A stretch of 64,000 nt of DNA, from NCBI GenBank assembly GCA_025462735.1, contig JAOAPC010000022.1, forward strand, positions 124,001-188,000, given 5' to 3'. The notes below the pieces were generated by a model that saw only the letters and a list, made by a program, of their open reading frames with translations, made no database searches and was not told the DNA's origin. This document shows positions 15,733 through 59,980 of this stretch, in pieces. Position 1 is the stretch's first letter. Every line of letters starts with the position of its first letter. Made by a program: the position numbers and the translations under genes. This DNA is from Acidobacteriaceae bacterium. Its GTDB lineage: Bacteria > Acidobacteriota > Terriglobia > Terriglobales > Acidobacteriaceae.

Positions 15733-15765
15733 TGTAGGGCGGGGCGAGGACGCCCGCTGCTCCAC
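15733..15765. repeat. REP-like hairpin with GTAG foot, 5' of lpxB
   Basis: GTAGGGCGGG and GACGCCCGCTGCTCCAC form a GC-rich stem with GTAG on the left and CTCC (GGAG on the other strand) on the right. These tetranucleotide feet are typical of REP elements served by RAYT transposases. It lies between the GH3 stop and lpxB. Confidence 0.65.
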
Positions 15766-15802
15766 AATCTCTTTTGAGGTAGGAGCACTTTAGAATGTTT
15801 TC

Positions 15803-17188
15803 GTGCGAATACTGATCTCAGCGGGCGAGGCGTCCGGGGAAATGTACGGGGCGCAGTTGATTGAGGCGCTGCGGCGGCTGCAAGCATTGTCGTGGACGGG
15901 CGAGACGCCCGTCGCTCCACATTCAAAAAAAGGGCTTGAATTTTTTGGGGTAGGCGGGGAGAAGATGCGGGCCGCCGGGTGCGATATCGTTGTCGATGCC
16001 AAGGAGCTTTCGGTTGTGGGCATCACGGAAATTCTGAGCCATCTGCCGAAAATCTGGGGGCTATTTCACAAACTGATTGCCGAGGCCGACAAGCGGCGGC
16101 CGGATCTAGCCGTGGTTATAGACTCGCCCGCGTTCAACTGGCGGGTGGCGCGGCAGATGAAGAAGCGCGGCGTTTCTGTTGTGTATTACGTGTGCCCGCA
16201 GTTCTGGGCGTGGCGGCAAGGACGGGTACGGCTACTGCGCAAATATGTCGATAAGGCGCTGGTGATCTTTCCATTCGAAGAGAAGTTTTATCGTGAACGC
16301 GGAGTAGATGCGGAATTCGTGGGACATCCGCTGGCAGAGCTTCCCCGCCCGGAGATTTCGCGCCATGACTACGCGGCAAAGCATGGGCTGGTTGCTTCGA
16401 AGCCGTGGATCACGCTAATGCCGGGGAGCCGAACGAAAGAAGTACGGATGAACCTGCCGGGAATATTGGAGGCGGCGAAGTTGCTGGGAGACGAGTACGA
16501 ATTCCTGATTCCGGTTGCGCCTACGCTTGGTTCCAGTTTTATTCAAGGAATAGTGGATTCCCACCCTTCGAAAACCGCGAAGGGTGGGGCAGCCTCCATC
16601 CATCGAGCGGAAATTGGGAACGCCGGCGAGCACAGCTCGCCCGCCCGGACGAGGGCGTCCGGGCCTACGCGGACATCTGTAGATTCCTCGGATGGTGCTG
16701 AGCCAAAGAACTTAGTGCATCTGGTTCCGCACGCGCTTCCGGCGCTTGCTCATTCACGCGCGGGACTTATCGCTAGTGGCACAGCAACAGTCGAGGCGGC
16801 AATGATGGAAACGCCGTTCGTGATGGTATACCGGGTGACTCCGCTGACTTATCTGCTGGGCCGATGGACGGTGAAGGTGCCGCATTTTGCCATGGTGAAC
16901 TTGATCGCCGGAGAAGAAGTTGTCGCGGAGTTGGTGCAGCAGGACTTCACAGCAGAGAGAGTGGCGACGGAACTCAAGCAAATCATTCCGGACGGAGCGG
17001 CGCGGCAGAAGATGATTGAAGGATTACGAAGGGTGAAGAGATTATTGAGCGCAGGGTCGACGGAAGGGCATGCGGCGGATCGCGCGGCCAGGGCCATTTC
17101 TGATTTATTGCAGACTCGCGCTTCCGGAGTGGCCTTTAGTGGTACGGGCGGGGACGCCCGCACCCCCACAACCCAAGATGAGTTTTGA
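15803..17188 (+). CDS. lpxB: Lipid-A-disaccharide synthase, enlarged by in-frame repeats
   Basis: LpxB joins UDP-2,3-diacylglucosamine and lipid X to form the lipid A disaccharide at the inner membrane. Family features are RILISAGEASGEMYGAQLI at the start, AVVIDSPAFNWRVAR, YYVCPQFWAWRQGRV, FVGHPLAE, LMPGSRTKEVRMNLP, and GLIASGTATVEAAMMETPFVMVYR. The 461 residues exceed the usual 370-390. The excess falls in three blocks whose DNA is REP-like hairpin: QALSWTGETPVAPHSKKG (about 31-48), HPSKTAKGG to SSDGAEPKN (about 253-302), and a tail after TRASG (about 440-461) made by a tandem array. The core motifs are intact, and the blocks fall where loops are expected, so activity may survive. The start is GTG at 15803 with GGTAGGAGC upstream. 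Confidence 0.93.
   Translation: MRILISAGEASGEMYGAQLIEALRRLQALSWTGETPVAPHSKKGLEFFGVGGEKMRAAGCDIVVDAKELSVVGITEILSHLPKIWGLFHKLIAEADKRRPDLAVVIDSPAFNWRVARQMKKRGVSVVYYVCPQFWAWRQGRVRLLRKYVDKALVIFPFEEKFYRERGVDAEFVGHPLAELPRPEISRHDYAAKHGLVASKPWITLMPGSRTKEVRMNLPGILEAAKLLGDEYEFLIPVAPTLGSSFIQGIVDSHPSKTAKGGAASIHRAEIGNAGEHSSPARTRASGPTRTSVDSSDGAEPKNLVHLVPHALPALAHSRAGLIASGTATVEAAMMETPFVMVYRVTPLTYLLGRWTVKVPHFAMVNLIAGEEVVAELVQQDFTAERVATELKQIIPDGAARQKMIEGLRRVKRLLSAGSTEGHAADRAARAISDLLQTRASGVAFSGTGGDARTPTTQDEF
15895..15924. repeat. REP-like hairpin inside lpxB, near its 5' end
   Basis: GACGGGCGAGACGCCCGTC is a perfect palindromic stem-loop followed by GCTCCACATTC. The same stem and tail recur at 59954-59980. It is translated in frame as WTGETPVAPHS. 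Confidence 0.75.
16559..16667. repeat. Two or three hairpin repeats inside lpxB
   Basis: The first hairpin pairs CCCACCCTTCG (16560-16570) with CGAAGGGTGGG (16578-16588) and ends GGGGCA, resembling family B with another stem. Next come GGCGAGCACAGCTCGCC (16625-16641) and CCCGGACGAGGGCGTCCGGG (16643-16662) followed by CCTAC, which is a GTAG foot on the other strand. All are read through in frame. Confidence 0.7.
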
Positions 17189-17262
17189 TCCTGGCGGGGA
17201 CGCCCGCGCCTCCACGGTCCGGATGAGTTTCGAGCGGGAGCCTGGGCGGCCGCGCCTCCACT
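17145..17262. repeat. 46-base tandem array of REP-like hairpins over the lpxB 3' end
   Basis: Three units of 46 bases each hold GGCGGGGACGCCCGC or a variant followed by CTCCAC or CCCCAC, with spacers GATGAGTTT in common. The lpxB stop codon (17186-17188) lies in the spacer after unit one, so the array supplies the last residues of LpxB. Confidence 0.75.
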
Positions 17263-35080: not shown

Positions 35081-35196
35081 AGGCCTGAAGGCCTGCTCCA
35101 CCCATAAAAACCCGCACTCCCACCCGGGCCTGAAGGCCTGCTCCACCCATAAAAAACCGCACTCCCACTCGGGCCTGAAGACCTGCTCCAGCCATG
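35081..35196. repeat. 45-base tandem REP-like repeat, about 2.6 copies
   Basis: Each unit carries GGCCTGAAGGCCTGCTCCAC followed by CCATAAAAA and CGCACTCCCAC. The palindrome GGCCTGAAGGCC plus GCTCCACCCAT equals the REP layout near the RAYT gene but with another stem. The third unit has one stem mutation (GACC for GGCC). Confidence 0.75.
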
Positions 35197-35303: not shown

Positions 35304-35400
35304 CGACCCACACGGCCTATAGACCTTTTTGTCCGACAAAAGTGTCCGACCCACACGGCTTATAGAGCTTTGTCGGACAAGAATGTCCGACCCACACGGT
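35304..35400. repeat. 41-43-base tandem repeat abutting the slt stop codon
   Basis: CGACCCACACGG occurs at 35304, 35347 and 35388, with TATAGA and a TTTGTCCGACAAA-like palindrome between. The last unit runs up to the slt stop (35401-35403). It could act as an RNA hairpin at the end of the slt message. Confidence 0.7.
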
Positions 35401-59269: not shown

Positions 59270-59300
59270 TTCATGGGTGGAGCAGCGCTTTAGCGCTGCA
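59270..59300 (-). repeat. REP element, GCGCTGAAGCGC stem, copy 3
   Basis: CATGGGTGGAGCAGCGCTTT, then AGCGCTGCA. It is the REP nearest the 5' side of the RAYT gene and faces the copies on its 3' side. Confidence 0.8.
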
Positions 59301-59347: not shown

Positions 59348-59863
59348 ATGACCATCCCATATCGCGGCACTACTGGAGATGGCAACTACTTTGTGACTTC
59401 TTCTACATTTCAGAAGAAAGCTCTTCTTCAGTCTGAGCGGATGGCGTCATTGCTTATTGCGACCCTAATCGAGTACCGGAATCAGCAAAAATATGAGCTC
59501 CATGAATTCGTGGTAATGCCTGACCACTTTCACTTGCTGATCACTCCAATCGTCACTTTGGAACGAGCAATTCAATTGATAAAAGGTGGCTTTTCATTTC
59601 GAGCTGGAAGATTATTTCGCGTTCCAGGGAACATCTGGCAGACAAGCTTTTACGATCGACGCGTAAGGGATGCTGAGGAGCACCAGGCCTTCAGACAATA
59701 TATTCATTGGAATCCAGTGAAGCGCGGGTTGGTGAGGAGTCCAGAAGAATATGGGTACAGCTCGGTCTCACGAAGCGCAAAACTGGACCCGTTACCTCAG
59801 CGGCTAAAGCCGGCAGTTGATCAGGAAATTGGACGCAGCGCTGAAGCGCTGCTCCACCCATGA
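59348..59863 (+). CDS. REP-associated tyrosine transposase (RAYT, IS200-like)
   Basis: RAYTs are Y1 HUH endonucleases that cut single-stranded DNA at REP hairpins and are thought to spread them. The 171-residue protein has the HUH-type motif ELHEFVVMPDHFHLLITP (His60 and His62), then IWQTSFYDRRVRDAEEHQAF and QYIHWNPVKRGLV, the family hallmark; Tyr118 or Tyr102 is the likely catalytic Tyr. GAGGG lies before the ATG. The last about 22 residues (QRLKPAVDQE, then IGRSAEALLHP) are encoded by a CCTCAGCGGCTAAAGCCG element plus a REP, and the TGA stop is part of the REP's CCATGA tail. There is no IS-like terminal repeat, as expected for the single-copy RAYT group. Confidence 0.92.
   Translation: MTIPYRGTTGDGNYFVTSSTFQKKALLQSERMASLLIATLIEYRNQQKYELHEFVVMPDHFHLLITPIVTLERAIQLIKGGFSFRAGRLFRVPGNIWQTSFYDRRVRDAEEHQAFRQYIHWNPVKRGLVRSPEEYGYSSVSRSAKLDPLPQRLKPAVDQEIGRSAEALLHP
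59796..59863 (+). repeat. REP pair inside the RAYT 3' end
   Basis: CCTCAGCGGCTAAAGCCG (59796-59813) and GCAGCGCTGAAGCGCTGCTC, then CACCCATGA (59835-59863). The second is a perfect GCGCTGAAGCGC-stem REP. Both are translated. Confidence 0.8.
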
Positions 59864-59953: not shown

Positions 59954-59980
59954 GGCGGGCGAGACGCCCGCCCCTCCACA
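59954..59980. repeat. REP-like hairpin, GGGCGAGACGCCC stem
   Basis: GGCGGGCGAGACGCCCGCC, then CCTCCACA. The same stem as the lpxB hairpin at 15895, here in front of the OB-fold gene. Confidence 0.7.

Follow-up and report, generated by a model that had tools for sequence, protein, structure and literature searches.

REPs are short palindromes thought to be mobilised by single-strand (HUH/Y1) transposases of the RAYT type. The gene considered in this work, lpxB, is an essential lipid A gene, and the DNA analysed comes from a soil acidobacterium.

Palindromes of this kind have been found inside genes. GTAG-/CGTC-tagged REPs with intragenic members are mostly intergenic, some of them lying in frame in uvrA, uvrB, recB, dnaE, and uvrD (Di Nocera et al., 2013; PMC3733652), and in two Xanthomonas species different REPs occupy about the same site of recB (PMC3733652); the main text of that paper makes no mention of lpxB or of lipid A. 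In Rickettsia, RPEs are palindromic DNA placed in frame in many metabolic genes and predicted to be compatible with protein structure (summarised in PMC10969869). REPINs, which are inverted REP pairs linked to RAYT genes (PLoS Genet. 2011; PMC3116915), are described as extragenic, and in P. fluorescens SBW25 only 14 of 1,067 core 16-mers overlap genes (PMC3116915). No paper linking LpxB with REPs was found in the open-access literature.

We analysed a window of 64,000 nucleotides (the whole stretch of DNA under study), whose lpxB gene and REP-like elements are given in Table 1, and compared its LpxB with those of relatives, namely LpxB from named Acidobacteriota (Terriglobales) assemblies, most of which are metagenome assemblies. 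With a probability of roughly 0.8, we consider that the extra blocks of this protein are REPs inserted in frame and sorted by the tolerance of its loops, with RAYT mobility as the probable mover.

Palindromic blocks in the lpxB gene of the window

The LpxB of the window was 461 aa long, as compared to about 379 aa expected, and with respect to 77 relatives the surplus was distributed in three blocks of about 15 aa (residues 29-43), 49 aa (about 252-303), and 18 aa (C-terminus). In the alignment with relatives, site 1, placed after the first helix, comprised 26 residues vs. a minimum of about 11, the mid site (residues 244-305) 68 residues vs. about 19, and the C-terminus 38 residues vs. a median of 20. 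The core (329 aa; median of relatives, 330) was near-constant in length. All three blocks were encoded by palindromic DNA with kin that are repeated, mostly in intergenic positions, in the same genome; the preliminary description, which proposed a surplus in three blocks of palindromic repeat DNA with the core motifs unbroken, was right in this respect and in its lpxB coordinates. The core is under purifying selection (dN/dS of 0.076 against the nearest relative, and 0.05-0.11 overall). A single match was obtained when a further LpxB copy was sought in the genome of 4.36 Mb, so that lpxB occurs once, and lpxC and lpxK are present too. The coding-hexamer score of the inserts was below zero, and they do not have the look of native coding sequence. 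Among the relatives, a partial duplicate of the start of lpxB, with a stop after 46 codons, was observed about 700 nt upstream of the full gene (L193:2501-4408).

Table 1. Positions in the window of lpxB, of the palindromic elements in and around it, and of the transposase gene with its neighbouring element.
Feature	Position	Strand	Evidence
Family-A REP in the spacer upstream of lpxB, CGGGGCGAGGACGCCCGCTGCTCCACA	15739..15766	+	sequence, genome census
lpxB, lipid-A-disaccharide synthase, 461 aa, GTG start	15803..17188	+	PF02684 match, E 2.4e-87
Site-1 family-A REP, in frame: hairpin GACGGGCG-AGA-CGCCCGTC plus tag GCTCCACA, peptide WTGETPVAPH	15895..15921	+	
Mid-site hairpin C, in frame: CCCACCCTTCG-N7-CGAAGGGTGGG	16560..16588	+	
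Mid-site short hairpin, in frame: GGCGAGC-ACA-GCTCGCC	16625..16641	+	sequence, RNA folding
Mid-site REP B, in frame: GCCCGGACG-AGGG-CGTCCGGGC with CTACG (GTAG tag, other strand)	16643..16669	+	
Tail family-A REP, CGGGCGGGGACGCCCGCACCCCCAC, first of three 46-nt-spaced units and the sole one within the ORF	17145..17169	+	
Two more 46-nt-spaced family-A units past the lpxB stop (at 17198, 17244)	17198..17261	+	
RAYT-type Y1 transposase gene, PDHFHLL and QYIHWNPVKR motifs	59348..59863	+	
Family-A REP variant, about 90 nt downstream of the RAYT gene	59955..59979	+	

The 19-mer of site 1 was present in 12 copies in the genome at no more than one mismatch, and the hairpin-plus-tag form of family A in 33 copies, the reversed control giving 0. 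In a census covering 1.57 Mb (36% of the genome; gene calls by our own simple gene caller, 82-86% coding), 17 of 23 family-A matches were intergenic; the same portion contained 3 matches of hairpin B and 9 of the class of hairpin C, which are few copies, and the REP status of these two hairpins is less firm. The tag was GTGGAG in family A, CTACG (GTAG on the other strand) in B, and GTAG or GTGG in site-1 REPs. Both family A of the window and the GGACAGCC family of relatives displayed stems of 8-10 bp, loops of 3-4, and a one-sided tag (CTCCAC, CCACA, or CTACA); being short tagged palindromes of about 20-40 bp, in many copies and mostly extragenic, they are REPs. In the mid block, two stems of at least 8 were found, a number reached by 0.05% of codon shuffles. 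In the tail, the 46-base tandem array had been described as the end of the protein; this held for its first unit (hairpin at 17145-17160), the other two lying beyond the stop codon. The lpxB tail array was absent from the Tandem Repeats Finder list at default score. Elsewhere in the window, two tandem arrays of palindromic REP-like units (35082-35195 and 35304-35399; units of 45 and 41 bp) were observed.

Since conserved domains flank site 1 and the mid site, any production of the enzyme requires the ribosome to pass through both, and translation of these two inserts is to be expected on this basis; the argument does not apply to the tail, for which translation is predicted from the ORF. In an AlphaFold2 model of LpxB (53-sequence alignment; mean pLDDT 85.5), most of the core was above 90, whereas values were about 62 for the insert at site 1, 38-52 for the mid insert, and 32-53 for the tail. 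The mid and tail inserts probably form disordered segments outside an intact fold, as judged from this model. Site 1 was located at that end of helix 11-30 which is the more remote from the glycine-rich loop conserved at the N-terminus. The best PDB matches (5w8s and 5w8n) were LpxB with 26% identity; superposition of the whole chain was poor (rmsd 21), possibly because the C-terminal part is swapped or takes another position in the crystal. A conserved function of the inserts was considered and rejected, the inserts being without conservation; they are probably tolerated rather than useful.

Entry of REPs at the same loops among relatives

An insert was present at site 1 in 42 of 76 LpxB proteins, whereas the other 34 presented a bare loop of the RRDPSLE type (about 11 aa). 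In classes that were set by eye from sequence and peptide and that included decayed copies, a REP origin was assigned to 38 of the 42 inserts: 18 forward (AELRSAGQPGAAVPT), 13 reverse (HVGTAALGCPA and similar), 2 inverted pairs, and 5 family-A types. The inverted pairs, which are REPINs in arrangement, occurred at this site in L201 and L236 only and were absent from the lpxB of the window. The commonest site-1 REP of relatives was the hairpin GGACAGCCG-N4-CGGCTGTCC, with 4-126 copies per carrier genome; 15 of 18 sampled copies were intergenic and one coding copy was lpxB itself.

Perfect hairpins (stem of at least 8) were considerably denser at site 1 (26 in 5.6 kb, 4.7/kb) than in the rest of lpxB (14 in 76.5 kb, 0.18/kb), in flanking genes (0.19/kb), or in flanking intergenic DNA (0.78/kb), and the mid site presented 9 in 5.3 kb. 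In codon-shuffled site-1 sequences, 0.83 hairpins were expected on average as compared to the 26 observed. The difference between site 1 and the rest of lpxB (Fisher P = 3e-21) ignores kinship, and the P-value thus overstates it; the ratio of about 25 is independent of P.

At the mid site, another clade carried GAGACGCGG-N4-CCGCGTCTC, a hairpin with 2-103 copies in those genomes and 0 in the genome of the window; entry into this second loop was a separate event, by a different REP family. The mid site of L229 contained the REP-B hairpin type of the window, the flanks of the hairpin being in the opposite orientation. In the same gene (L229:2533-2900), a one-base frame change was observed just before the mid-site REP cluster, the frame being open through the insert; it corresponds to an assembly error or a broken gene, and the insert was rejected as its cause, the change being one base upstream of it.

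The use of the same loop by several families and in both orientations supported the earlier proposal that REP-like elements had repeatedly entered lpxB at places tolerant of loops. Two observations that had been named beforehand as contrary to that proposal, i.e., relatives without REPs that keep the extra residues and a position of these residues in a conserved domain, were sought: rows without a REP displayed the 11-aa loop, with the partial exception of L158, which retains residues of a decayed copy of hairpin C, and the residues fell in low-confidence loops outside the conserved fold.

Transposases, other genes, and alternative explanations

In three genomes (L300, L310, and L316), the commonest site-1 REP, of the GGACAGCC family, stood on either side of a gene with RAYT motifs (PDHVH...YLLxNPV), so that this family of relatives has a RAYT gene flanked by the same REP. 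The RAYT gene of the window was flanked by inverted GTGGAG-tagged AGCGCT hairpins (59277-59299 and 59835-59859). Downstream of it, a copy of the site-1 hairpin had been reported at 59954-59980; a related element was there indeed, as the variant GGCGGGCGAGACGCCCGCC and not as the same 19-mer. This one nearby copy is no more than suggestive of the window RAYT as the mover of family A. In another part of the same genome (L073 and L076), two closely similar RAYT genes were observed about 2.3 kb apart, each with flanking GGCACGTCTTTAGACGTGCC hairpins and a TATCAG tag.

In-frame REP-like hairpins were also present in GyrB, UvrD, GatB, RecG, PrmC, PurL, a MiaB-like protein, a family-2 glycosyltransferase, and a C26 peptidase of the same genome, where lpxB, with 3 perfect hairpins, tied for first with two other genes. 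Because lpxB is not unique within its genome, the claim rests on the comparison among species. In GyrB (L129:8100-10772, minus strand), the in-frame REP was in the C-terminal linker (GTDALVRP), and no counterpart was seen in the relatives examined; for 9 of the 30 rows, the limits of the linker could not be set. In-frame REPs thus characterise the genome, and recurrence at a single loop characterises lpxB, as judged against one control gene, GyrB. UvrD (L152:9027-11804, minus strand) presented the insert VGRTFLSDQ before its tudor domain, with 11 copies of the hairpin core in the part read, and a second REP-like insert in the middle of the protein (PSTSLRAG-type repeat peptide). The glycosyltransferase gene (L098:13999-15336, plus strand) contained three in-frame hairpins, two of them adjacent and of the GGCACGAC and GGCACGGC types, which were paired also in the C26 peptidase gene (L126:6672-7523).

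According to the reading that we favour, a RAYT-type transposase would move REPs into lpxB, where they would be inserted in frame at two outer loops, one after helix 1 and the other between a helix and a strand of the C-terminal domain; at the 3' end, the reading frame would run into an intergenic REP array. The DNA motif would be selfish or neutral, its survival being decided by the protein, and only insertions that keep the frame, in loops tolerating unstructured peptide, would persist. The palindromes of surviving insertions would decay afterwards, and, on many occasions across the bacterial family, the same loops would have received REPs of various families in either orientation. The filter by loop tolerance and the recurrence are well supported, and the flanked RAYT genes point to the probable mover.

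On the core tree, which is that of one gene with many weak forks and does not separate gain from loss, insert types were scattered, with at least 29 changes for all types. L189 (forward) adjoined L226 (reverse), and a cluster with moderate support (87-90) was made up of L198, without an insert, L205, with a forward one, and L210, with a reverse one. On this sequence comparison, the site-1 REPs had more than one origin. A single ancient insertion at site 1, inherited vertically and followed by divergence, gene conversion from intergenic REPs, and losses, would account for the inserts held in common by the close pairs G000/L157, L201/L236, and L196/L220 and for the decayed hairpin C of L158; it is improbable, however, given opposite orientations in neighbouring rows, unrelated REP families, a return to the bare loop in 34 rows, the lack of inserts in the most distant rows, and the rejection of the forward carriers as one clade (AU P = 2.5e-5). 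Besides, conversion that happened repeatedly would itself amount to REP DNA entering the gene again and again. An artefact, either misassembled palindromes or lpxB being a pseudogene, could be thought of, as the relatives are mostly metagenome assemblies and L229 has its frame change, but it is extremely improbable: dozens of independent assemblies had similar inserts at this loop, the frame was open throughout, the dN/dS values were low, and lpxB was single-copy in a genome with lpxC and lpxK; as far as the general pattern is concerned, this explanation is already refuted.

The preliminary description had also suggested that the hairpins were kept for an effect on the mRNA. Lying about 90 nt from the start codon, they might, for example, slow translation or make the message more stable. 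A stem of 8-15 bp was intact at one position close to the 5' end in 25 of 77 relatives, and the mid block had predicted RNA structure (z = -3.3); nevertheless, this idea fared badly and is quite improbable, since 34 of 76 relatives were devoid of the insert, the palindrome was lost in many others (L159, L161, L163, L165, L168, L173, L205, L206, and L212), orientation and family were mixed, and a second, distant site was used too. It is also possible, albeit unlikely, that site 1 is a preferred RAYT target, the DNA around the EALRR codons fitting an insertion preference and targeting counting for more than tolerance. The density of hairpins at site 1, above that of flanking intergenic DNA, agrees with this, as does the linker of GyrB, another flexible loop, with a REP in the genome of the window only. 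On the other side, no target motif was defined, REPs were also found in the second lpxB loop and in many other genes, and loop tolerance varies, GyrB being one control only. That the first loop is a true, RAYT-directed hot spot, a safe harbour inside an essential gene, is a rather doubtful proposition; were it true, the element could not be lost by gene deletion and its cost to the host would be a floppy loop only.

The lpxB inserts compared with known systems

By definition REPs are extragenic; nevertheless, a single loop of an essential enzyme contained them repeatedly, in members of a whole family, and at a density above that of the flanking intergenic DNA. The loops of LpxB document how small mobile DNA has lengthened a protein in nature, as vacant sites, recent insertions, degraded copies, and the two orientations can be compared with one another, and they make two open questions testable: how RAYTs choose their targets, and in what way selfish DNA that is translated turns into neutral protein sequence. 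As a caution, LpxB models and annotations from these bacteria include REP peptides.

The preliminary description regarded the landing of REPs in an essential gene as unusual. This stands for the recurrence at the same site across species, but not for in-frame REPs in conserved genes, which have been published and occur elsewhere in this genome. Like the intragenic REPs of Di Nocera et al. (PMC3733652), those of lpxB are short palindromes with a tag at one end, some of which are translated inside conserved genes; unlike them, they concern one gene and the same two loops throughout a family, with several REP families, both orientations, and GTGG/GTGGAG tags besides GTAG. They share with RPEs the in-frame insertion of palindromic DNA into genes, whereas RPEs measure about 150 bp and encode a conserved peptide and the lpxB elements are 20-50 bp with peptides that differ by orientation and family; in addition, a RAYT is at hand for the commonest lpxB REP family, which sets it apart from RPEs. 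The inverted pairs of L201 and L236 resemble REPINs, but in contrast with the extragenic REPINs they sit inside lpxB. In-frame REPs were therefore already known, and what is new is that, throughout a bacterial family, one essential enzyme has received them time and again in the same loops.
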